Notes under the pieces: generated by a model
Told to the model about the DNA's origin: nothing
Seen by the model: the letters and a program-made list of their open reading frames with translations, nothing else
Database searches by the model: none
NCBI RefSeq assembly: GCF_041381155.1
Contig: NC_091142.1
Location: forward strand, 6,699,778-6,763,777
Reading direction: 5' to 3'
Origin: Argopecten irradians
Lineage: Eukaryota; Mollusca; Bivalvia; Pectinida; Pectinidae
Length of the DNA: 64,000 nucleotides
Translations under genes and position numbers: made by a program
Shown here: positions 1 through 17,010 of the stretch, piece by piece
Position numbering within the stretch: position 1 is the first letter of the stretch
Layout: every line of letters begins with the position of its first letter

Positions 1-1558
1 CATCTATTTATTGATCAGACATACTCTTTAAGGCTAAAGCAGATATATTAAAAAACATGAAGAGTCTGGATTACTTTTGGTTATAAATACTGATTTAGGG
101 ATTCTTTTTATTTATTCGATATTTATACATTTTTACACAAAGTTCCACCAATACCTGTTACAGGCTATGTTAACCTAACTTCATGTACATGTATCTGTTT
201 TGTAATAACAATTGTACTCATGAAGTTAAAGATGCTCAACCGCTGACAAATGGTATTTTTTCACTACCAAAAACAGGAGTAGACGATTTAGTATTTTCTT
301 AAGTTACAAAACTTACTTACTTTACACCATTATCACCAATGAAAAGTTTGAGCTTCTAATTTTATTTCACGTTAAAAATATGAAAAATTATTAATTGCAT
401 CCCGAAAAAATTCCGTGGCACTATATTCTATATGAAATGAAGTACTGATTGTGCATGCTCCATACACAAAATACATAATCTTATACTTATTTTTGTGTAG
501 ATTAGACATATATATATATATACACGATTAAACATCAATTATTGTACAAATGTGGAATATTATTTAGCTCTGTCGGCGGTGGAGCATCATTAAGTGATGA
601 CATAAATAATTAGTTTTAATGAAAGTTAATTATGTCCTTTCGTGCTGTATCAGTTAGTGACAGTTACCGTTATCGATGTTGATTTGTACTTTACACTTAT
701 ACTACAAACTACTTTATCAGAAGGTACTTAACAGTTAGTACCATTGTTGTATATTTACTTACCTGTGTCAGTTTTATACTACATTTAATGTCTATTGCAC
801 TTCTCTATAAGTTTAAACTCAATACAGGTTAATATTTTATATCATTATGTTGCAATTGATTAAAGTATCAGATAACCTGAGAAATACCTGTATGGGTGGA
901 TTATACATAAGTGTTGATCCAAATTTTGTGACAAGAAATGAATTTTAAAATTTTCGAAAATGGTTATAGATTAATTTAAACTTCATAATTTTAAATACCA
1001 TAATTCTTGCTTAGGAGACAGATTCCTGGGACAGATTTCAGAACTGACTTTTTAATATTGACCATCTATCTAGTGATCAGACAGACTCTTTAAGGTTAAA
1101 GCAGTCTATTTAGAAATCAAGAGTGTAGTGTGTATTAGGTTTTAAGTTCTGAATTTTTATTTTATTATATTTTTTACATAGAATTGATTTTTGCACTTTT
1201 GTATTTTTCACCACCTCCAGAGTCAATGTTAAACTGATCTTTTGTATATCAATGAAGATTTGGCTAGAATTTATGCATTATTTGATGAAAGTTTATTTAT
1301 TACATCTGTGTACTAATAACCATTAATTAGCCATTTTTTTCCATGAATGCATATGCTATAAACTTAATTTATAAGTTTACCATAATGAATTGTAAACTTA
1401 TGCTATCTGTGATAATTATAAATTTATATTTATATTAAAATAAATTGTTACAAATTTTATTTTTAAATATATCTCTTTAGTTTGTCATTATTTCAAGTAC
1501 CCGGTATACAATTTTCCATCTTCAAAGCTCCAGAGGTTACTTCCACTGTGGTTATATC
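1..1558. repeat. 1.55 kb dispersed repeat, copy 1
   Basis: This stretch matches 15447-17005 in the same orientation with only scattered differences. It probably begins before the window. Each copy contains an internal direct repeat about 1060 bp apart: position 1 onward resembles 1063 onward, and 15447 resembles 16507 (shared words 'GATCAGAC' and 'CTCTTTAAGG'). A TTAA-flanked short element sits inside both copies and carries the same variant (GCTCAACC instead of GCTCCACC), so it was already there when the unit duplicated. I see no coding sequence in it. Confidence 0.8.
226..593 (+). mobile_element. TTAA-flanked MITE family 1, copy 1
   Basis: A non-coding element of about 365 bp bounded by TTAA, with terminal inverted repeats AGATGCTCaACCGC and GCGGTGGAGCATCa. 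Four more copies lie at 15676, 23757, 34450 and 57915. TTAA target sites are typical of piggyBac-type transposases, so a piggyBac-mobilised MITE is the best guess. It has no transposase of its own. Confidence 0.75.
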
Positions 1559-1593
1559 ACAGTTAAATGACTATATCTATATTTCTAAGGTAT

Positions 1594-2302
1594 GTGCCTT
1601 ATTTTCATAGATTGTCAAAATCTACTGTTTTCTGCTACCTAACCTTAGGGTAGCAGTGTACAGCAAGACCGAATGGCCATGGTGAGATTTTTATTAAGCA
1701 GAAAGCCCCTGTTTTACTATATGCATAAAAAATTTAAAAATGTATATGTAATAAAATTGGTGAATTCAATCTAGATAATTATGTGCAGGCTTCACATTTG
1801 CATAAAGAAATTCCCCAAAATGTGTTCGAGATTAATGTTTTATAGGGTATCCGAATGTGCGTCTAAGATGGAAAAACTCACTACTGTAGCAGCAGAAATT
1901 GATAGCCGGGGTACGAGGTAAGATTGCTCAAACGTTTTAACGGGTGTTACATAACCCCAGGTTCGCTCCTGTCCAGTATCATGGATTTATTAGATATAAT
2001 TGACAAACACTTTTGTAAAAGTTCTGGTATATTTATTATGTTAACAAGAATGATATAAGGTTACAATAAAGTACACTGATATGTAATTTTGGAACAGATA
2101 CTTCAGTTGCTGTTTTGTTATAATATTAGTAAAAATGTCGATACGTTAGCTCATCTGGTGAGATCGTACTGAACTTGTAATAGTTACGATCGTTTATGAT
2201 AAAAATCTAAATAATAGAGCCAAAATGACTTGTGCTAATAATTTCAGTAGAGGTTGCTTCCCTTGGATCGTATCACATCAACTTGTAAGCATTTTAAGTA
2301 TA
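1594..2302 (+). other. No firm gene; one weak exon candidate
   Basis: Between the dispersed repeat and the retrotransposon I see no convincing gene. One open segment, 1846-1917, lies between an acceptor-like 'GTTTTATAG' and a donor-like 'AG|GTAAGA' and would encode SECASKMEKLTTVAAEI followed by DSRGTR. It has no recognisable relatives or neighbouring exons, so I leave it as a possibility only. Confidence 0.2.
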
Positions 2303-2508
2303 ATTATACCGGCGCGTAATGTCGACAAGGGCTAGCTTGTTGGACCAAGCAAGTGAATGAAAACCAACAACATGATATGAATTGAAAATGGCCGTTTATT
2401 ATGATAAACGACGAGATATGACATAAACATAAAATGATTCTTTCAATCATTTTTATAAAGCATATAAGCAAAATAAAGATATGGTCCAAGGTGGGGATAA
2501 AAAGCGCC
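2303..2508 (-). repeat. Ngaro split direct repeat B2 (outer end)
   Basis: This 206-bp segment matches 3018-3223 in the same orientation without visible differences, with a constant offset of 715 bp. It forms the downstream outer edge of the element. Outside it, the sequence stops matching at once. Confidence 0.9.
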
Positions 2509-2734
2509 CCATCCATAGTTAACGAAAATTCTTACATAAAGTACATGTTATACCTATTAAGTTAAACATGAAAAGAATCTAGACATGTGTCATGGTCAAA
2601 AGCAAGATACAACTTGCAAGGATGCAACTCGATACAAAGACAACATATGTTCAAACTATAATATTATATAAAAGCTATTCCGTAACGAAACCTTTTGGCC
2701 ACAGAATTGAGGAAGGTCATGGGGAGGAGGTGGG

Positions 2735-3018
2735 TGCTGATAAAATATTGAAAAATATCAGAAAAACTGACCTTGATCTGTGTCCATCTTGTAATAAAGT
2801 GGGTAATGAAGCTGACACACGCGCACTGGTCAGTAGATAATACTGCGCGTGATGAGACCTTGACCCAATTACCTCTTACTTGCCCCTAGACCCTCCTCTC
2901 AGAAAAATAGCACGGAATATAACAACGTACAAAATATTAATATGAAACATTAATATTTTTTTTAAAACAAACTACTTGCCTGTATAAAATACATTAAAAT
3001 TGAAATTTTAATTTACCA
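2735..3018 (-). repeat. Ngaro split direct repeat A2 (internal)
   Basis: This 284-bp segment matches 9555-9838 with a constant offset of 6820 bp. It abuts repeat B1 at position 3018, the B1/A2 junction characteristic of this element group. Confidence 0.9.
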
Positions 3019-3223
3019 TTATACCGGCGCGTAATGTCGACAAGGGCTAGCTTGTTGGACCAAGCAAGTGAATGAAAACCAACAACATGATATGAATTGA
3101 AAATGGCCGTTTATTATGATAAACGACGAGATATGACATAAACATAAAATGATTCTTTCAATCATTTTTATAAAGCATATAAGCAAAATAAAGATATGGT
3201 CCAAGGTGGGGATAAAAAGCGCC
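3018..3223 (-). repeat. Ngaro split direct repeat B1 (internal)
   Basis: Second copy of the 206-bp B repeat, directly joined to A2. It follows the recombinase frame and the hairpin cluster in element orientation. Confidence 0.9.
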
Positions 3224-3636
3224 ACAATGTTTATCAGAAACTCCTGATTTACTCATGAGTTACTGATAAACATACCCCACCAAAGCCCTAGTCGACATTG
3301 AATATTTGATCTAGTGGATAATATGTATAATTGTATAGAAAAACCTGACGAAAAATTAGGTAAACAAAATGTGTCAAGGCTTGTGCCCTTGACGAAGACA
3401 CTGTAAATCTTTGAAAGCACATATATATACAAAAAGCCTTCTAAAGCGTAAACACTGAAAAGAAGTGAAAAGTTCATTGTACGTTAGTACACACAACCAC
3501 TCAATTTATGGATGCCAAAGTCTTTCAGTAAGTATATATGGTAAGATAGTAGTGTCCGTTTTAAGTATAGTAAACACGTTGATACACATCCTCCAGTCAG
3601 CATCCAGCCGCCCTTAGTTACTCAAACATAGTAAAT

Positions 3637-4027
3637 CAACTTCGACCCAATGCCCAAGTTGATATGAAACAACCCCTCCAATTTATGGATGCCAAAGTAT
3701 TTCAGTAATATAAGTATATATGGTAAGATGTCTCCAGTCAGCATCCAGCCGCCCTTAGTTACTAAAACATAGTAAATCAACTTCGACCCAATGCCCAAGT
3801 TGACATAATACAAAAGTTTAACAAAAATGGTTACAAATAATTTGTTATAGTTGCTATAGTGCAATGTGACCGTTGTTCTTCGACCCAATGCCCAAAAACA
3901 ACTTATTACCATAACACTCGGTGTACAAAATCATATATGACACAGTATTAGATGTACAGCTTTTAGAAGTATTGCACAGTTTTTACCAATAAGACAAAAT
4001 TGTTCTTCGACCCTATGCCCAAGAACA
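3637..4027 (-). other. Four hairpins with one conserved loop in Ngaro 3' region
   Basis: Four short inverted repeats (3637-3661, 3778-3802, 3872-3902, 4001-4027) share the central 13 bases CGACCCAATGCCC, with one base changed in the last. The flanking arms differ between copies but still pair: CAACTT/AAGTTG twice, GTTGTTCTT/AAAAACAAC with one mismatch, and TGTTCTT/AAGAACA. The first two copies sit in a tandem duplication of about 140 bp, so they are not independent. Arms that change together around a fixed loop suggest a structured RNA signal in the element transcript. The function is unknown. Confidence 0.7.
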
Positions 4028-4099
4028 TGAATTAAATGGTTTGTATAATAACATTATTTCCAACCATACTAACCAGCCTGATCTATTTCCTAGAATAGA

Positions 4100-5011
4100 C
4101 TAATTGTCATAGAATGTAGGTAATCGTATATACCGTTTGAAAGCAAGAGATCTCCATCTGCCCATCTGTTGGATCTCCTCATCGGGTATGCCTGCAGCTG
4201 CAGCTGAACTTGCAGCGCCTATGCGAAAGCTATGGCTGGAGTAACTATTTGGGGGTAGACCTGCTGCGATCACCGTCTGTTTCATACATATGCCGAAAAA
4301 ATGGTAAGAAATTGGTATATTTGGTGCCAGCCGAAACAGTGGGCCTGGTGTGGTCCCCCTTAATCTAATGTATTGCTCGAGAGCCAGTACTGGGCAGATG
4401 GAGGTATCCTGTTTCCGATCAATCGATATAACCACAGGACGAATATTATAGTTTCCCTTGTAGGAATGAAAAGTGATCTCTAACCGTGTTATAGAAGAAT
4501 GATCTGAAACAAGTCTTAAATCTTCATATTGTAAAGCATGTGAACTGCCGTTGCCAGATATCATCTCTCCTACTCTAAGGAATGCGTGAAAAGCTAATAG
4601 ATACATCGCTTTCAACAGAATTTGCTGAAAGTACGAAAGGTTTGTATGTGCTAAAGCCTGAACCAGACGTCTCAAAATAGACGGTGTAATAGGGAGTCTG
4701 GAGTCGGGTTGATATGATCCCCTTTGCACCGCTACTAGGATTTTTTTAATCAGAAATGAATTGGCTGGATCACTGAAACCTGCGAGTTGATTGATGTAAC
4801 CGATGCCTGCTACATATGTTTTTATAGTGGCAGCTGCAAAGTGTTTGCTAAATAGGTGTGCAATAAAATAGACTAAGGTGTCAACTGAGGTTGGAAGGCA
4901 ATTGATACCTTGGAGGGATGTTTGTACAAATTCGTGCAATAAATGAAATGCACGAGAATATGTTTGCTGTGTTGACGTTGAAACTGCAGATGTTAACAAT
5001 GACTCAACCAC
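4100..5011 (-). CDS. Ngaro tyrosine recombinase
   Basis: A 303-aa frame with the layout of DIRS/Ngaro recombinases: an N-terminal DNA-binding part, then FLRVGE around residue 146, then near the C terminus SHSFRIG, GRWRS and a tyrosine in KRYIR, which correspond to the conserved R..HxxR..Y catalytic set. It would integrate the circular DNA copy. It starts just after the RT frame ends (6 bp apart). Confidence 0.9.
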   Translation of the reverse strand: MVESLLTSAVSTSTQQTYSRAFHLLHEFVQTSLQGINCLPTSVDTLVYFIAHLFSKHFAAATIKTYVAGIGYINQLAGFSDPANSFLIKKILVAVQRGSYQPDSRLPITPSILRRLVQALAHTNLSYFQQILLKAMYLLAFHAFLRVGEMISGNGSSHALQYEDLRLVSDHSSITRLEITFHSYKGNYNIRPVVISIDRKQDTSICPVLALEQYIRLRGTTPGPLFRLAPNIPISYHFFGICMKQTVIAAGLPPNSYSSHSFRIGAASSAAAAGIPDEEIQQMGRWRSLAFKRYIRLPTFYDN

Positions 5012-5016
5012 ATCAT

Positions 5017-6855
5017 TCAGACTTTCATCAGGGCTGGATGAATAAGGACTGGAAGACTGTCCATGTGAGGTGCAAGGTCCCGAAAGTTTGTGACCTGCAA
5101 ACGAGACAAACGGTCAGCTAAAACATTTTTCTTTCCCATAATGTGAACAGATGAGAATAAGAAGTTATTCTTCAAAGACTGAACAATGAGACGGCGTACC
5201 AATTTCATTACAATTGAATCCTTGCTTGTGTGCTTAGTCAATATGGTTACCACCGCCTCGTTATCACAATGAAACATAATGCATTTATTGCGTAAATGGT
5301 CAGCCCAAATTTCTACAGCTAAGACTATGGGGAACAACTCCTTAATGGTAATATGGTAAGATCTAAAATGGTCCGGCCATTCTCCATAAAACCATTGTTT
5401 GCCAAACACTGCTCCATATCCTATACCACTGGCATCAGTATAAAAATGTAAATGTTCAGAGTTATCCCAACGGTCTGGTAAGAACAAAGATATACCATTG
5501 TAACCCACCACAAACTCTAACCATGCCTTTATATCTGCTTTGGCCTCTCTATTCAAACGAATGAAATGATTTGGCTTAGATATTCCACGTGTCAGATCGA
5601 TCAGACGACGTAGAAATGGTCTACCTGGTGCAACCACCGTACAGGCAAAGTTAAGTAGACCGATCAAGGATTGTAACTCTTGGAGAGTAACTTTTTTCTT
5701 TCTGTTGAATTTGCCAAGCAATTCTGTGATTTTTTGGATTTTGTCTGATGGAAGCCGTGCTTCCATTTTATCGGAATCCAATTCTACCCCTAAAAATGTA
5801 ATAACTGTTGTAGGCTGAACTGTTTTGGTATGTTTTATTGGTATTCCCATGCGCTGACACAGAGCTAAAAATGTGGTTAGATCTTTAAAGCATTTATCTG
5901 AAAGGGGGGGACCTACAAACAGGAAATCATCCAAAACATGAACAACTCCAGCAGCTTGAAATTTGGTAACCATGATCCAATGCAGAGCAGTGCTCAGTTC
6001 TTCAAACAAATTACAGGAAATAGAACAACCCATGGGTAACACTTTGTCATAGTAAAACTTCCCCTCAAGTTTCATACCCAATAATTCATAGTCTGATGGA
6101 TGTATTGGTAAAATTCTAAATGCATTTTCTATGTCAGTCTTAGCTAATAATGCACCCTGTCCCTTTAACCGAATTAATTTTATGGCATCGGAAATTGTTT
6201 GATATGATACTGTGGCATCTTCGCGTGAAATTCCATCGTTGATGGACGACCCTTCAGGATAGGAAAGGTGATGAATTAACCGAAATTCATTTTTTTCTTT
6301 TTTGGGCACTAAACCCAATGGAGAAATGTGAATATTAGGCATTGGAATATGATCGAAAGGGCCCGCTATCCTTCCCAGTGAAACCTCTTTTTCAATCTTT
6401 TCTTTTAAAGTTGACTTATTATCATCTGCTGATTTTAAATTTTTTGCATCTCTAAATTGGCGTGGGCCCGTGTATTGTAACAAAAACCCTTCAGAAAACC
6501 CCAACAAAAGTTTATTGGATTTTAATGTATCATATCCCTGTAAGTATTGTTCTAGAACCTTAACACTAACGGGAGTGGGAAGGGAACTTTTTGAATTATT
6601 TATTTTGATTGGATTGGTCTCTGTTCTGAGCGAACTGCTTATTTGCATTGTTGCTGGTGTTGGTCGAGTTGTTTGCGCTTCGTGGGGTGTTGGTGTTTCT
6701 ACACTGTTTTGCGTGGTGCCCTCCCCCACATTTTGTACATGTATGGGGAAACCTACATTGTTGTCCCCTTGCACAGGAGCCATATTGTAAGAAATCCCAA
6801 CATTTCCCCTTTGGTTTTTTACCATTTCCTTGAGCCTGTTGGGGGGCTCCCCCAA
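5017..6855 (-). CDS. Ngaro reverse transcriptase-RNase H
   Basis: A 612-aa frame. The reverse transcriptase part spans about residues 150-400, with the palm motif VLDDFLF (the YxDD-box position of this group) and the upstream AKTDIENAFR. RNase H follows at about residues 470-600, with FYTDASGIG, an IKEL helix, CDNEAV and a final ADRLSR. No methyltransferase domain is visible, which favours Ngaro over DIRS1. It overlaps the Gag-like frame at 6596-6855; overlapping frames are common in this group. Confidence 0.92.
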   Translation of the reverse strand: MGEPPNRLKEMVKNQRGNVGISYNMAPVQGDNNVGFPIHVQNVGEGTTQNSVETPTPHEAQTTRPTPATMQISSSLRTETNPIKINNSKSSLPTPVSVKVLEQYLQGYDTLKSNKLLLGFSEGFLLQYTGPRQFRDAKNLKSADDNKSTLKEKIEKEVSLGRIAGPFDHIPMPNIHISPLGLVPKKEKNEFRLIHHLSYPEGSSINDGISREDATVSYQTISDAIKLIRLKGQGALLAKTDIENAFRILPIHPSDYELLGMKLEGKFYYDKVLPMGCSISCNLFEELSTALHWIMVTKFQAAGVVHVLDDFLFVGPPLSDKCFKDLTTFLALCQRMGIPIKHTKTVQPTTVITFLGVELDSDKMEARLPSDKIQKITELLGKFNRKKKVTLQELQSLIGLLNFACTVVAPGRPFLRRLIDLTRGISKPNHFIRLNREAKADIKAWLEFVVGYNGISLFLPDRWDNSEHLHFYTDASGIGYGAVFGKQWFYGEWPDHFRSYHITIKELFPIVLAVEIWADHLRNKCIMFHCDNEAVVTILTKHTSKDSIVMKLVRRLIVQSLKNNFLFSSVHIMGKKNVLADRLSRLQVTNFRDLAPHMDSLPVLIHPALMKV

Positions 6856-7936
6856 GAAAGGGCTGGTTTTTAGTCACTGCTCTAAGACCAATACCTAATG
6901 CTTGGACATACAGTTCTTGATTAATTACTCCCCATAGCATGCTGGGGTTGACCTGAAACCATTTCCTGAAGTTGCTATCATAGAACATGCTAGCAGCAAA
7001 TCCAGACCTACGGGCCAATGTTTGAACTATGTCAGCATATTTCATCAAACCTTCCATATGTTGTGGATGGCTTCTTACATACAATGCTACATATGTATGG
7101 AAGGCCTGGAGCCAATGTTCAATAGATTTAATTTGAACTTGTTTAGTTTTTGGTACAACCGACACCTCCCCATTATGGATTTGGAATTGATACAAATCTT
7201 GGGAAGATGAGGTTGCGAGTAACTGGCCTAATTCTACAAATTCATTGTTTTGAATTTTTGCTACTATCTTAGGGTCAACATTAGTGCCTAGGGGTCTGGA
7301 TATGCTGCTTGCTTCGTCACCTGTTATAGTGTTAACAACATTGGATATTGGCGGCTGGATGGTGGCTGGAAGTGTTGCTGTTGGACCCGATGTTGAAACC
7401 GGAAGGTGATGATTGAGAGTCAGCATTTGTCCATTTTGGCTGAGGTGATCCTGTGTTGATGTCCTTGTAACACCGCTATATTGATTTTCACAAAGAGCCG
7501 AGCCGGTGATGTTTGGTCCTAATGGGTTAATGTTCTGGGTAGGAACTGCCGTGTTGTTCAGGTGAGCTGTAGAACTGGCTGCAGCACTCGGAGCCTGAAG
7601 CCCCGGCAATACTGAGGCTACACCTTTCTCCAGCATCTGTTGAAGCAATTCTGACGCTATTTCTCTTGCTGTGGGGAACACTGAAGCATTTGTGACCGGA
7701 TTGAGTGGATTAGAGTTAACTGTAGCATTTACAGGAACATCATTCACTGTGGCGGCATGTACAGTAGCCACAGTCACTGGAGCATTCTCTGGTGCATGTT
7801 GCGGAATTTCAATGTTTTGAGCTGTACTTCGTGGTGTACTTTGTAGTGTTTCCCCCTGATTAGTGCGGAGTTCTGATCGTCTACGAGTGGTGACCAAACT
7901 ATGTTGGACTGCTGCCCTTCGTCGTGGCCTCCTCAA
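6596..7936 (-). CDS. Ngaro Gag-like protein with zinc fingers
   Basis: A 446-aa frame. Residues 1-240 are a low-complexity Thr/Asn/Ala/Pro-rich region, followed by a conserved globular part (about 265-360). Near residue 380 there is a CCCH finger (C-x8-C-x5-C-x3-H) followed by a knuckle C-x2-C-x3-H-x4-C. By position and zinc fingers it is the nucleic-acid-binding structural protein of the element. Confidence 0.8.
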   Translation of the reverse strand: MRRPRRRAAVQHSLVTTRRRSELRTNQGETLQSTPRSTAQNIEIPQHAPENAPVTVATVHAATVNDVPVNATVNSNPLNPVTNASVFPTAREIASELLQQMLEKGVASVLPGLQAPSAAASSTAHLNNTAVPTQNINPLGPNITGSALCENQYSGVTRTSTQDHLSQNGQMLTLNHHLPVSTSGPTATLPATIQPPISNVVNTITGDEASSISRPLGTNVDPKIVAKIQNNEFVELGQLLATSSSQDLYQFQIHNGEVSVVPKTKQVQIKSIEHWLQAFHTYVALYVRSHPQHMEGLMKYADIVQTLARRSGFAASMFYDSNFRKWFQVNPSMLWGVINQELYVQALGIGLRAVTKNQPFLGGAPQQAQGNGKKPKGKCWDFLQYGSCARGQQCRFPHTCTKCGGGHHAKQCRNTNTPRSANNSTNTSNNANKQFAQNRDQSNQNK

Positions 7937-8326
7937 GGGGCCGATATGCTCTGGGAATAATGTAAAATGGATTAGAAAGTCATCCTACAGATGAACAGCA
8001 TTAATAAAGTACTATGGAGTAGACAGGACAATGAAAAATCTTAGCCTTCTCAATTTAACTGATCATTATTAATTTCAAGTAAAGATGTTGATCTTTACTA
8101 ATTATTAACAGTACTGCCCTATATCTACTCATTCTGTATGTAATAGACAGATGACCTGTCGGAACAAATTAAAATTAATTGCACTCAATATATGTGATGT
8201 GAAATTAAGATGAGATAAAAGCTCATTTTACCAAGCTAAGTATTTAATGAAATGTTGTAAAATATTCACCAGTGGGAATAAGCATTATGTACAGTATGTG
8301 TTATCAATTCTAGTTTAATCTAGTTT

Positions 8327-8560
8327 GTTCAACAGAATACTGGCATTCTGCACAAACTATAGATAGGCACTCGTTCAACAGAAAGTCTATTTCTGCACAA
8401 GTCCATACGCTTTGAAGATAATTATTCTTTGTTCAACAGAAAATTAATATCTGCACAAAGAGACACAACCCATGCGATTGTTCAACAGAAATCTACCATT
8501 TCTGCACAACCATGTAATTATCATGACTGCATGCTCAACAGAATAATGAAATCCTGCACA
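8327..8560 (-). other. Five spaced hairpin motifs in Ngaro 5' region
   Basis: Five copies of a motif, GTTCAACAGAAA, 5-8 variable bases, then TTTCTGCACAA, lie at 8327-8356, 8373-8400, 8431-8459, 8480-8509 and 8533-8560, spaced about 46-58 bp. CAGAA and TTCTG form a stem and the bases between them vary. Some copies extend the pairing with different bases (CAGAAT/ATTCTG against CAGAAAT/ATTTCTG). They lie between the hydrolase and Gag-like frames. The regular spacing and preserved pairing suggest binding sites on RNA or DNA, possibly for packaging. That role is inference. Confidence 0.7.
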
Positions 8561-8931
8561 TACATGTTATCAATAGTAATGGATAGGAAATGTCAGAGAC
8601 ACGTTAACGTTAACCCATAGCATGCCTGTAGTATAACAGTACAGGAAACCCACGTGCGATAACTTGTATAACAGCACAGCTAGATACAAAACTGTATGAA
8701 TATAGCCAAACCAGGTTATTCCGTTATCGTGACATTAATCTCTCCGAATCCTACAATGTCTAAATAATTCATACTCACATGGTAGCCTAGCCACCGTAAA
8801 CCACTAAGTAAAGATCATGTGAACAGCGAGTCGCGCTCTAAAATTAGACCGGAACGTAAACAAACTTGGGCGGAAGCCGTCTATACCAATGTACTTGCGC
8901 AGTGAGTAACAACTACGTCATAACCCTTACC

Positions 8932-9537
8932 TTATGCAAATGAGCTACGGCCCCTGCGGGTCAATTTTTGGCCCCACAGCACAGCGCCCCGTACTGATAA
9001 TCTGTATGTACGTAATCCCTCACGGGAAAGATGGACTCCGTCATGACACAATTTATCAAAGATACCATCCTTTAGTCCTTTATGTCGCCAATAAAAACAG
9101 TTCTTTTCTACACTACAAAGATGTTTGATGGCCCTGTTCACAAAATCCACAGCAGCATTATACTCTGTAACTGGCACGTTACGTGTGTTAGCCCTATACA
9201 AAAGTTGCATAACACCGACCAGCTCAACACCAAAGCCATTAATTAGCCACTGAACAACGGAGAACAAATCCCGTGCTAAAGTCTCTCGTATAACCAAATA
9301 ATCACTACAGTCAAGGTCATTTCCTCCTATTTGTAAAAGGACAATCTTCGGTCTTATATCCTGAATGGGACGTGACATGTCAGAAGTAAACAAATGGCGT
9401 ATCCTCCCGCCACTCCTCCCAACACAATGTACATTCAGTGAGTTATCCAAACCTAAATTATCCCATGTCCCTGACATTTGACCGCCCAAACGTCTAACGA
9501 AACTGTGACCTAGTATGATAACTGACGTTTGATCCAT
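8932..9537 (-). CDS. Ngaro-encoded SGNH-hydrolase-like protein
   Basis: A 201-aa frame. Near the N terminus is IILGHSFVRRL (the GDS-like nucleophile block), then GRSGGRIRHL, then LLQIGGNDLD (the GxND block) near residue 90, and DGVHLSREG (the DxxH block) near residue 170. These are the ordered blocks of SGNH/GDSL hydrolases. Some Ngaro elements are known to carry such a frame; its role in the element is not established. It lies just inside repeat A1. Confidence 0.8.
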   Translation of the reverse strand: MDQTSVIILGHSFVRRLGGQMSGTWDNLGLDNSLNVHCVGRSGGRIRHLFTSDMSRPIQDIRPKIVLLQIGGNDLDCSDYLVIRETLARDLFSVVQWLINGFGVELVGVMQLLYRANTRNVPVTEYNAAVDFVNRAIKHLCSVEKNCFYWRHKGLKDGIFDKLCHDGVHLSREGLRTYRLSVRGAVLWGQKLTRRGRSSFA

Positions 9538-9554
9538 GGTATTTCTTTCAAATA

Positions 9555-9838
9555 TGCTGATAAAATATTGAAAAATATCAGAAAAACTGACCTTGATCTG
9601 TGTCCATCTTGTAATAAAGTGGGTAATGAAGCTGACACACGCGCACTGGTCAGTAGATAATACTGCGCGTGATGAGACCTTGACCCAATTACCTCTTACT
9701 TGCCCCTAGACCCTCCTCTCAGAAAAATAGCACGGAATATAACAACGTACAAAATATTAATATGAAACATTAATATTTTTTTTAAAACAAACTACTTGCC
9801 TGTATAAAATACATTAAAATTGAAATTTTAATTTACCA
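9555..9838 (-). repeat. Ngaro split direct repeat A1 (outer end)
   Basis: This 284-bp repeat matches 2735-3018 and forms the upstream outer edge of the element. The match ends at 9838, where unrelated sequence begins. Confidence 0.9.
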
Positions 9839-10956
9839 GTAAAACTCATATTCACATTGTTTCCTTTATAACGTATATCGTCTGCTTTTGGAAGTATCCC
9901 ATAATGCATCACGTCGTTGTGTAGGTAAACCAACGTAAAATAACATTAACGTAAATAGTAAGTAATGCTCGAATATATAGAACACTAGTATTGAGAAACC
10001 AAACAAACTTGGATGCCTACCCATCGTTTAGGTGTAACTGACGACATCCTCTAAGGTAAGGTTGTGAAGTCTGAAGGTATTATGACCAGCAGAATGTGAG
10101 TCGAAGATCGAACTGACGTTTGACGTTTTCGGGCGGCCTTTTATACTCGCCGCCGAGACCCTATTGAACAATCAGAATCGAGCTTACATGTTGTGACGTC
10201 ACAATCTAGATGCCGCCAAACTGTAAACACCTGCCGCTCTCTGGCATGGAATTTCGCATAATAATCGGCTTTCTGATGGTTTAGAGTGCATACAACAATA
10301 ATACACGAATTAATAACATAATGAAGAATCTAAACATGCTTCGTTTTCAGTATAAGGTAAGATAATCGACCTGTAATCGTCTTCAATTGTCTGAATCAAA
10401 GTTGATGAATCTCGCCATTTTGAATGGCATGCTCGATCCGCCATGTCAAAGTTGTCGGGGATTTCCGTTATAAATCAAGTATAATATATTTACGTCAGGA
10501 TATATCTCATGTTTTATAAACATAGATATTATGATTATCTGCTAAAAGTAGATACTGTAATATTCGTAACAATTGCTCAAACGTTTAATGATATACATAT
10601 GTCGAAATAGGCTCAGTTCCGCTATCACGGCAGTGATGCTTGGTTTTAAACTGTGTTAAAGAAAAAAAATTCTCCTAGATGGGATGTAATTTTGGGTTGA
10701 AAATCCCAATTTTTTGCATTTTTCAAAACAACAAATTTGGTTACCATGGTTTTTACAGGCTCACAAAACCACAAAAAGCGGACCTGTTCAAAAATGAACT
10801 CTGCATAACAATTGCAACTGTTGTGTAGATTAAAATATCTATACTTTTATATAGATGTTACTTAAGGTTAAAAAGCTGTGTGTACATAATTGAAGCCTGC
10901 ACTTTATTTTGCTGATTTTTTCAAATCTACTGTACACTGGCACCTAGTAGGCTGTT
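9839..10956. other. No gene seen
   Basis: This AT-rich non-coding DNA lies between the retrotransposon and the next gene. A TGACGTCA palindrome at about 10194-10201 would fit a CREB/ATF site. I found no exon with paired splice sites or a recognisable product. Confidence 0.4.
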
Positions 10957-11144
10957 ATGCGGGAGGAGTTATCGTCCTTGTTTCTAATGACGTTAACAAT
11001 TAGAGTTATTTCCCCTTGTTATTGTTATCGTTGCCTGAGTTTACGCGCGGTAACAACACAAAGTGCCTTTCTACAAATTTTCGTCTTACGAACTATCGTT
11101 CTACAAACTCATCACTTTATTGGTCTTTATCTTCGGGAAACATC
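10957..11144 (+). other. Possible 5' noncoding exon of the 12.4 kb gene
   Basis: A clean donor, CATC|GTAAGT, at 11144/11145 lies upstream of the acceptor at 12411 that precedes the first coding exon. The region before it could be a noncoding first exon, and the intron would contain the 42-bp minisatellite. The exon start is a guess; transcript data would settle it. Confidence 0.3.
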
Positions 11145-11277
11145 GTAAGTATATCAGTGTAAAAGGAGCGGGTCGTTGTGATTTGTATTTAGTGTTAAAT
11201 AGGCCTCTGTTACCCAGCTGACGAAGTATGTATGCTTCTTTCAATCTTTGGCACAGTCGGCAGAGTAGTTTTTACCC

Positions 11278-12335
11278 ATCTTTACATTACTTACGTTTAT
11301 CCCTCTCTCACTATATTGTATATTATATTACTAAGGTTTATCCCTGTCTCACTATATTGTTTATTATATAACTAAGGTTTACCCCGTCTCACTATATTGT
11401 ACATTTTATTACTAAGGTTTATCCCTGTCTCACCATATTGTATATTTTATTACTAAGGTTTACCCCGTCTCACTATATTGTACATTTTATTACTAAGGTT
11501 TATCCCTGTCTCACCATATTGTATATTTTATTACTAAGGTTTATCCCTATCCCACTATATTGTATAATATATATAATCAGGTTTACTCCTGTCTCACTAT
11601 ATTGTATATTATATAACTTAAGTTTACCCCTGTCTCACTATATTGTATATTATATAACTTAGGTTTATCACTTTCTCGCTATATTGTAATTTTATTACTA
11701 GGGTTTATCCCTATCCCACTATATTGTATATTAAATACCTTAGTTTTATCCCTGTCTCACTATACTGTATATTATATAGCTAAGGTTTATCCCTGTCTCA
11801 CTATATTGTACATTTTATTACTAAGGTTTATCCCTATCCCACTAAATTGTATATTATATAACTTAGGTTTATCACTCTTTCACAATATACTTCATTATAT
11901 TACTTAGCTTTTTATCTCTTCCACTATATTGTATATTATATTACTTACTTATTATATCATTCTCTCATTATATTAATATTATGTTACGTTGGTTTATTCC
12001 TCTCCCACTATATTGTATATTATATTACTTAGGTTTATCCCCCTCACACAATATTATATATTATATTACTTAAGTTTATCATTCTCCCACAATATAGTTC
12101 ATTATATTACTTAGTTTTTGTCTCTTCCACTATATTGTATATTATATTACTTACTTGGTTTATCCCTCTCTCACTATATTGTATATTATATAACTTAGGT
12201 TTATCCCTCTCCCACTATATTGTACATTATATTACTTGGGTTTATCCCTGTCTCACTATATTGTACATTATATAACTAAGGTTTATCCCTGTCCTACTAT
12301 ATTGTATATTATGTTACTTAGAATTATCCCGAATA
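11278..12335. repeat. 42-bp minisatellite, about 25 copies
   Basis: A tandem array built on the core CCCTGTCTCACTATATTGTA plus TATTATATTACTAAGGTTTAT, with units of 41-48 bp. Units differ mainly in TGTCTC versus CTCCC and in the AT-rich half. The array ends about 80 bp before the first coding exon of the 12.4 kb gene. Short open frames within it are by-products of the repeat. Confidence 0.95.
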
Positions 12336-15284: not shown

Positions 15285-17010
15285 TGGTTGGATTATGTAT
15301 AAATGTTGGTCTAAATTTTGTGACAAAAACTCTATTTTTAAGCTAAAATGGTTATAGATTAATTTATAGTTCACAACTTTAAATATCATAGTTCTTGCCT
15401 CGAAGACAGATTCCTGGGACAGATTTCGGAGCCGGTTTTTAAAGATTGACCATCTATTTACTGATCAAACCGACTCTTTAAGGTTAAAACAGATATATTA
15501 AAAACATGAAGAGTCTGGATTACTTTTGGTTATAAATACTGATTTAGGGATTCTTTTTATTTATTCGATATTTATACATTTTTACACAACGTTCCACCAG
15601 TACCTGTTACAGGCTATGTTAACCTAACTTCATGTACATGTATCTGTTTTGTAATAACAATTGTACTGATGAAGTTTAAGATGCTCAACCGCTGACAAAT
15701 GGTATTTTTTTCACTACCAAAAACAGGAGTAGACGATTTAGTATTTTCTTAAGTTACAACACTTACTTACATTACACCATTATCACCAATGAAAAGTTTG
15801 AGCTTCTAATTTTATTTCACGATAAAAATATGAAAAATAATTAATTGCATCCCGAAAAAATTCCGTGGCACTATATTCTATATGAAATGAAGTACTGATT
15901 GCACATACCCTATAGACAAAATACATTATCTTATACTTATTTTTGTGTAGATTAGACATATATATACACGATTAAACATCAATTATTGTACAAATGTTGA
16001 ATATTATTTATGCTCTGTCGGCGGTGGAGCATCTTTAAGTGATGACATAAATAATTAGTTTTAATGAAAGTTAATTATGTACTTTAGTGCTGTATCAGTT
16101 AGTGACAGTTACCGTTATCGATGTTGATTTGTACTTTACACTTATACTACAAACTACTTTATCAGAAGGTACTTAACAGTTAGTACCATTGTTGTATACT
16201 TACTTACCTGTGTCAGTTTGGTACTACATTTAATGCCTATTGCACTTTTCTATAAGTGTAAATTCAATACAGGTTAATATTTTGTATCCTTATGTTGCAA
16301 TTGATTAAAGTATCAGATAACCTGAGAAATACATGTATGGGTGGATTATACATAAGTGTTGGTCCAAATTTTGTGACAAGAAATACATTTTTAAATTTTC
16401 AAAAATTGTTATAAATTAATTTAAAGTTCATGATTTTAAATACCATTTTCTTGCTTAGAAGACAGATTCCTGGGACAGATTTCGGAACTGACTTTTTAGT
16501 ATTGGCAATCTATCTAGTGATCAGACAGACTCTTTAAGGTTAAAGCAGTCTATTTTGATATGCAGAGTAGTGGGTTTTAGGTTTTAAATTCTGAATTTTT
16601 ATTTTATTATATTTTTTTTTTTGTTACATATAATTGATTTTTGCACTTGTGCATTTTTCACCACCTCCAGTTGCAAGGTTAAACTGAACTTTTGTATATC
16701 AATGGAGATTTGGCTAGAATTTAGGCATTATTTAATGAAAGTTTATTTGGTACATCTGTATACTAATAACCATTAATTAGCCATTTTTTTCCATGAATGC
16801 ATATGCTATAAACTTAATTTATAAGTTTACCATAATGAATTGTAAACTTATGCTATCTGTGATGATTATAAATTTATATTTATATTAAAATAAATTGTTA
16901 CAAATTTTATTTTTGATATATCTTTTAGTTTGTCATTATTTCAAGTACCCGATATATATTTTTCCATCTTCAATGCTCCAGAGGTTACTTCCACTGTCGT
17001 TATATCCACC
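15285..17010. repeat. 1.55 kb dispersed repeat, copy 2
   Basis: Matches 1-1558 from 15447 on. The 15285-15500 segment is itself a direct repeat of 16340-16570 (both with 'CAGATTCCTGGGACAGATTT'). The copy contains a TTAA-flanked MITE at 15676-16038. It ends near 17005, at a segment (CTCCAGAGGTTACTTCCACT) that also resembles the inverted repeat at 58.8 kb. Confidence 0.8.
15676..16038 (+). mobile_element. TTAA-flanked MITE family 1, copy 2
   Basis: Second copy, lying inside the duplicated 1.55 kb unit. It shares copy 1's variant left end, so it moved with the duplication rather than by a separate insertion. Confidence 0.75.

Follow-up and report, generated by a model that had tools for sequence, protein, structure and literature searches.

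The 3' region of a retrotransposon in the genome of Argopecten irradians contains four short hairpins, which raises the question of whether they constitute an RNA signal maintained by selection and, if so, what reads it. They occupy positions 3635-4027 of the window (the whole 64,000-nt stretch of DNA that was analyzed), in a non-coding stretch between the tyrosine recombinase (YR) ORF and the split direct repeats B1-A2-B2. The preliminary description had reported a motif held fixed in four copies between arms that change and still pair, and had proposed selection on an RNA or single-stranded DNA structure with a recognized loop.

The element lies on the minus strand and has the sense order A1, GDSL/SGNH-type hydrolase ORF, Gag-like ORF, reverse transcriptase/RNase H (RT/RH) ORF, YR ORF, four hairpins, B1, A2, and B2, all of them on that strand. 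The YR ORF (4100-5011, 303 aa), which immediately precedes the hairpins when the element is read in the sense direction, matches PF00589 with an E-value of 4.8e-6 and 26.9 bits, a fraction of a bit below the cut-off of 27.1. The RT/RH ORF just upstream of it (5017-6855) matches RVT_1 (E 3.6e-9; 37.1 bits, above the cut-off of 29.6) and RT_RNaseH (E 3.3e-5; 24.4 bits, a fraction of a bit below the cut-off of 24.8). The Gag-like ORF (6596-7936) encodes a C-terminal CCCH finger at residues 379-398 (zf_CCCH_4, E 1.6e-4; 22.1 bits, 6.9 bits short of the cut-off of 29), followed by a CX2CX4HX4C knuckle that was read by eye. The GDSL/SGNH-type ORF (8932-9537) matches Lipase_GDSL_2 (E 1.2e-5; 26.3 bits, below the cut-off of 32.9). 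Repeat A1 (9555-9838) is 100% identical to A2 (2735-3018) over 284 nt, and B1 (3005-3223) is 98% identical to B2 (2291-2508).

Both the repeat plan (A1 ... B1 A2 B2) and the ORF order (Gag-like ORF, RT/RH, then YR) are those of Ngaro-like elements. The plan A1-[ORFs]-B1A2B2 is given for Ngaro elements in passages of PMC8547959, and an SGNH hydrolase ORF occurs in Xenopus Ngaro-like families according to passages of PMC9210276; the element is similar to Ngaro-like retrotransposons of the DIRS order in its repeats and in its Gag, RT-RH, and YR ORFs, and perhaps also in its putative SGNH hydrolase ORF. The split-repeat pattern is also common to PAT-like and VIPER-like elements, as stated in part of PMC6681497. 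Classification of the element as Ngaro-like is well supported, the name being based on its structure and on the preliminary description rather than on an RT phylogeny with named elements. A search for tRNA genes found none, no solved structural relative of Gag was obtained at E<=0.1, and none of four pattern matches to RT relatives in viral contigs was confirmed. The single-sequence AlphaFold model of Gag (mean pLDDT 37.4) was uninformative and was left unused.

Several further repeats were observed around the element. An inverted repeat at 3227-3273 (21-nt arms, 90% complementary, 5-nt gap) adjoins B1 on the side of the hairpin array. A direct repeat of approximately 1.5 kb (51-1558 and 15500-17006, 15.45 kb apart) flanks both the Ngaro-like element and a minisatellite at 11282-12330 that is formed by about 25.5 copies of 41-bp units. 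Most pieces of this direct repeat are 93-98% identical, with clearly less identity between 957-1104 and 16401-16548.

The four hairpins, all folding on the minus strand, share the sense-strand apex GGGCAU(U/A)GGGUCG. Hairpin 1, the nearest to the YR ORF (4001-4027), has its apex at 4008-4020 (GGGCATAGGGTCG, one mismatch to the motif) and a predicted energy of -12.0 kcal/mol (z -4.59). Hairpin 2 (3872-3902; -13.6 kcal/mol, z -5.35) has its apex GGGCATTGGGTCG at 3881-3893 and one G.U pair in the stem, whereas hairpins 3 (3776-3804, apex 3784-3796; -13.1 kcal/mol, z -4.57) and 4 (3635-3663, apex 3643-3655; -12.8 kcal/mol, z -4.32) share an 82-nt duplication that is 95% identical. Thus, the arms pair as originally claimed, and three of the four motif copies reported as fixed (3643-3655, 3784-3796, and 3881-3893) are exact; the fourth, 4008-4020, reads CGACCCTATGCCC and is one base off. 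The odd C/A pair of the copy at 3881-3893 (GTTGTTCTT/AAAAACAAC on the plus strand) becomes a G.U pair on the sense strand. In 100 shuffles of the window the motif was matched on average 0.31 times at two or fewer mismatches, and no shuffle reached four matches. Since hairpins 3 and 4 belong to one duplication, they are not independent, and the window alone provides only about two independent arm types; the weight of the evidence therefore comes from relatives elsewhere in the genome.

None of 200 shuffles was as stable as the sense folds of the four hairpins, whereas the plus strand, folded with the same RNA parameters, gave -4.8, -2.7, -4.6, and -6.1 kcal/mol (z -0.9 to -2.9). In the predicted sense fold, an outer stem of 7-9 bp is separated by a 1x1 G/G mismatch from an inner stem of 3 bp (GGC/GUC), which is capped by a pentaloop, either AUUGG or AUAGG. 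According to this prediction, the fixed "loop" is not bare but is itself structured, with its own inner stem. No Rfam family reached its threshold within positions 1-12000 of the window, the best score there being 21.7 bits where the gathering score is 50, and the four weak matches in this interval all lay away from the hairpins. A complement of the apex elsewhere in the element was found at 8 nt once (6338-6345) and at 9 nt never, and approximately 0.7 would be expected by chance according to our own estimate.

Relatives were sought among the 845,758,899 bases of the genome. The exact 13-mer GGGCATTGGGTCG occurs in 52 copies, compared with 2 copies of the reversed control. Fifty of these matches were inspected, the two on contig C250 being left out; 45 of the 52 are situated in hairpins or hairpin remnants, whereas five (L050 and L055-L058) have no pairing. 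In L055-L058 (contigs C143, C233, and C411) the 13-mer belongs to another small repeat, in which it is preceded by GTAAAtATCCGATC and has no pairing stem. A search of the same genome with the YR returned at least 131 matches, of which 81, higher-ranking and mostly reaching the end of the YR, were combined with the window into a set of 82 YR-anchored 3' regions. The apex GG[GT]CAT[TA]GGGTCG, hereafter type C1, was found on the sense strand in 22 of the 82 regions, with 77 occurrences. The motif is thus present in related elements, at least within the genome of origin, where the check was run. In one copy (C14:10886717-10886978), whose YR is 62% identical to that of the window, a 521-nt search matched only two 33-nt stretches, both at hairpins.

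Contig C14 also contains two clusters of four C1 elements each (10732837-10755186 and 10870813-10894638). The orientation is the same within each cluster and opposite between them, and the hairpins are 7.2-8.1 kb apart; these clusters look like head-to-tail arrays of whole elements.

The stems of the C1 hairpins covary well beyond the background. Across 26 aligned C1 hairpins with seven stem pairs, 90.1% of cells pair, compared with 57.5% after shuffling, and the covariation score is 0.891, compared with 0.273; in both cases none of 500 shuffles was as high, and slid registers gave at most 0.284. Changes on both sides were seen for all seven pairs, but this count is uninformative, as 83 of 500 shuffles match it. 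In the arm swap of 14 distinct C1 hairpins, an average of 5.64 of 6 positions pair with their own arms and 3.58 with swapped arms (0/5000 as high). The rule for counting distinct hairpins varies by test: 26 clusters were used in the C1 strand count, 14 C1 hairpins in the arm swap, and 18 in the pooled strand test, both strand comparisons being described below.

Relatedness was taken into account by our own script modeled on R-scape, in which substitutions are re-placed along a FastTree tree in 400 simulations. For 59 C1 sequences (a set that omits 7 of 119 motif matches, one each from L050, L055-L058, L064, and L067, as outside YR arrays), stem positions account for the four top-scoring column pairs and for six of the top seven. 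In this set E-values below 0.0025 are reached by stem pairs 2 and 4, and the other stem pairs miss E 0.05. The summed stem score exceeded all 400 simulations both with YR-anchored sequences only (34) and with nothing dropped (66), in two versions of the null each. In these two sets the top rank among 561 column pairs is held by stem pair 4 and the next by stem pair 2, whereas with 66 sequences stem pair 1 falls to rank 11 and stem pair 6 to rank 19. Stem pair 5 reached E 0.007 in one of the four runs on the 34 and 66 sequences; only stem pairs 2 and 4 are individually below E 0.05 in every version. Covariation, for which the preliminary description had asked for a comparison with related elements, is consequently above background by shuffles, slides, and an R-scape-like tree null, all within one genome.

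The folding strand was assessed from mispairs and fold energies. At stem positions 1-5 of C1, the sense strand has 18 G.T compared with 2 A.C among 59 unique hairpins, and 10 compared with 1 among 26 clusters. With five apex types pooled (positions 1-6; the other types are introduced below), 39 G.U and 8 A.C pairs were counted, where arm shuffles expect 52.2 and 31.4 (p 0.0037). The sense fold is more stable than the antisense fold in 54 of 58 distinct hairpins, including all members of four types (18/18, 8/8, 8/8, and 14/14) and only 6 of 10 in type C8. The bias of G.U over A.C together with the fold stability favors the sense strand, and hence a transcript. Judging from pair composition and modeled energies, the folded strand is most likely sense RNA; sense single-stranded DNA would also fit, as G.T pairs are tolerated there. 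Selection on a structure with a recognized element, as originally proposed, is thus supported, and can be refined to a structured apex that most likely acts in sense RNA.

Type C1 is one of nine apex types seen in this genome. A further 33 of the 82 regions carry one of eight other apices: C2, G[TC]CAG-[CG][AG]TTTG[CG]-CTG (3 regions); C3, GGAGTAATTGGCTTC (5); C4, TTGCTTGGGCCG (9); C5, CAGGCGCGTGGGTCCCTG (3); C6, CTGTCTGAGGCGG (3); C7, GTCAGTACAGCCTG (4); C8, GTGGCGGCACGCCC (5); and C9, GAAGCGGGGGTC (1). In total, 55 of the 82 regions carry one class and none carries two. The number of copies per region is one in 2 of these 55 regions, two in 8, and between three and fifteen in 45. Neither the antisense strand of these regions nor approximately 50 kb of the remaining window, read on both strands, contains any class motif. 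Most types share a predicted plan, in which a free outer stem is followed by a 1x1 mismatch or a 5'-side bulge of 1-2 nt and then by a short inner stem that ends in a 3-6 nt loop.

The arm swap, in which own arms are compared with swapped arms, was passed by C1 (0/5000), C2 (1/5000), C4 (0/5000), C3 (0/5000), and C8 (4/5000). Two of these results depend on the register: C3 first failed (1525/5000) and passed after a 1-nt 5' bulge was moved into the core, whereas C8 failed in the first register (4116/5000) and in one shifted register (5000/5000) and passed in another. C5 failed in both registers (3352/5000 and 3380/5000 for one, 1556/5000 for the other). C6 and C7, with two distinct arm pairs each, and C9, with one, have too few for the swap. 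Covariation is thus statistically supported for five types of nine (C1, C2, C3, C4, and C8), with the reservation that the arm-swap shuffles ignore relatedness and the tree null covers C1 only. The inner stems also covary in two types, being GGAG/CTTC or GGGG/CCTC in 23 of 23 C3 hairpins and CAGG/CCTG or CAGC/GCTG in 26 of 26 C2 hairpins.

The apex types follow the phylogeny of the recombinase. A YR tree was built from 21 rows, in which each of C1-C8 is represented by one to four rows and two further rows, labeled apart, have no class; C9 was left out. The eight classes and the two classless rows need 9 changes on this tree, which is the minimum possible and was equaled by none of 200 shuffles. 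The weak points of this tree are the C5 clade (support 56/24), C7 with its single row, and the long branch of the classless L127.

The remaining 27 of the 82 regions have none of the nine motifs, and among them L044 contains decayed C1 hairpins and L069 contains C4-like apices. Two more of these regions, L025 (at about 152 and 266, sense coordinates) and L027 (at about 152 and 264), have two hairpins apiece whose apex reads AATGCAGGGCATT or GATGCAGGGCATT; these perhaps form a tenth type with too few copies for testing. Tandem units of approximately 40 bp in L027 (1194-1740, sense) and approximately 30 bp in L068 (929-1330, sense) are unlike the hairpin arrays. Blind scans did not recover the classes. 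A scan for 7-mer loops was noisy on both strands, and a scan for repeated cores, with own and crossed arms compared, gave 27 of 82 YR regions and 12 of 72 control pieces, with no separation; a control scored as high as any (best 5.20 against 4.33). For this reason the nine types were delimited by eye, with the original observation as the source of C1, and then tested on the same regions, so the class frequency is no blind estimate.

A fixed apex on a free but paired stem, present in several copies in a non-coding 3' position and folding on the sense strand, implies that something reads the apex in RNA, and the fact that exclusive apices track the YR tree within one host points to a reader encoded by the element rather than to a common host factor. 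We propose, with a probability of about one-half, that the hairpins are a multi-copy, clade-specific, cis-acting recognition tag on the genomic RNA of the element, read by an element-encoded protein for which Gag is the first candidate. Several apex copies would be bound by this protein, most likely the Gag-like protein through its C-terminal CCCH and CCHC zinc fingers, and each clade would thereby package and reverse-transcribe its own RNA, the several copies giving avidity. On this proposal the stem only props up the apex, so its sequence is free, and the apex would coevolve with its reader, which would lead to clade-specific tags inside one host.

Every type from C1 to C7 has at least one YR locus with a Gag homolog beside it, in alignments that pass residue 414 and so cover the finger region, whereas the homolog beside the C9 locus ends at residue 413. 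No Gag match was found beside C8 loci among the matches listed (95 of 380 candidates scored). Gag matches also adjoin YR regions with no recognized array (e.g., L071 and L086), so Gag alone fails to predict an array. The link of Gag to the hairpins is one of association only, from which its role as their reader, and packaging as their purpose, are inferred.

Other readers of the apex have to be weighed against Gag. The hairpins might instead be a 3' signal by which the reverse transcriptase of the element selects its template or initiates copying, comparable to the stem-loops at the 3' end of certain LINEs. Their 3' location, the RT/RH ORF just upstream of the YR ORF, and the clade-specific apices, which suit any element-encoded reader, are all consistent with such a role. 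However, the window array lies upstream of B1-A2-B2, away from the extreme 3' end, and three to fifteen copies in 45 of 55 regions go beyond what an initiation site needs, which makes the RT a rather unlikely reader. It is likewise unlikely that the hairpins recruit an RNA-binding factor of the host that would act in the nuclear export, stability, or translation of the element RNA. Repeated loops do recruit a host factor in retroviral constitutive transport elements, and sense folding in a 3' non-coding location suits an mRNA control element, but one conserved factor would favor one apex, whereas nine are found in one host and the eight placed types track the YR tree.

A role of the structure in single-stranded cDNA or DNA, for instance as a site for the YR, has in its favor that dyad symmetry always suggests DNA sites too and that YR elements recombine DNA intermediates. 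We regard it as very improbable, since the typical site of a tyrosine recombinase has conserved arms with a variable spacer between them, the reverse of the hairpin pattern, the window hairpins are outside the A/B repeats, and both the G.U over A.C bias and the fold stability favor the sense strand. Finally, the arrays could have arisen with no selection at all, from one inverted repeat that was locally duplicated and then drifted. Hairpins 3 and 4 of the window do lie in a duplication, and C6 and C7, like parts of C2, consist of near-tandem copies whose arms are alike. Drift, though, gives no compensatory change, and it is already contradicted for C1 by the excess of own over swapped arms (5.64/6 compared with 3.58) and by a summed stem covariation above all 400 tree simulations in both sets, so that we give this explanation almost no credence.

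The proposed tag can be compared with several known systems. Hepatitis B virus packaging signals comprise several stem-loops with RGAG loops as a common motif, as described in passages of PMC7612645, and multi-copy packaging signals with a shared loop motif are described, in the parts of the literature covered, for other RNA viruses as well. The similarity is in several stem-loops per RNA with a common recognition motif in the loop: at the DNA level, stem-loops of different stem sequence with one apical motif are present here too, and selection for pairing of their stems is indicated for C1 by tree null, shuffles, and swaps and for C2, C3, C4, and C8 by swaps only. In contrast, those signals are viral and their reader has been studied experimentally, whereas here the host of the signal is a YR retrotransposon and the candidate reader is a putative one; compared with the hepatitis B virus signals, the apex is longer, with a predicted inner stem and bulge, and the array is in the 3' region. 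In retroviruses, zinc knuckles of the nucleocapsid recognize G-rich hairpin loops of the psi signal, which is near the 5' end. The TIPIRT kissing loops of Ty1 are likewise at the 5' terminus, according to passages of PMC5454406. Both psi and TIPIRT resemble the present arrays as cis-acting hairpins, with an element-encoded Gag carrying zinc fingers in the case of retroviruses, and differ from them in being near the 5' end rather than in the 3' region. Neither is, to our knowledge, an array of one apex on free stems.

In LINE/SINE pairs, of which eel UnaL2 is an example, an element protein reads the conserved loop of a single stem-loop located at the extreme 3' end. A 3' RNA stem-loop with a conserved loop is common to both systems. 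Unlike the LINE type, the arrays comprise three to fifteen copies in 45 of 55 regions, and in the window they are upstream of the terminal repeats B1-A2-B2 rather than at the 3' terminus of the RNA. The words "hairpin" and "secondary structure" are absent from the main texts of PMC3783388, PMC9210276, and PMC6681497, and "hairpin" is absent from that of PMC8547959, so a hairpin array is not described under those words in these papers. Titles and opening lines of abstracts among the papers listed in the literature searches contain no cis-acting RNA signal for Ngaro and no such arrays in YR retrotransposons, which is no proof of novelty.

The arrays bear on the question of how a YR retrotransposon selects its own RNA for copying. 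The arrays may provide Ngaro-like elements with a code for self-recognition, in which the members of a clade share an apex that other clades lack and that would keep the RNAs of co-resident families apart in packaging and copying, a possibility to which we assign slightly less than even odds. Arrays of short hairpins with one fixed apex lend themselves to direct tests in vitro, and the nine apices in one genome constitute natural controls of specificity. Where the element proteins have decayed, the array may also be useful as a sequence mark, given that 45 of the 52 exact matches in 845.8 Mb are found in hairpins or their remnants.
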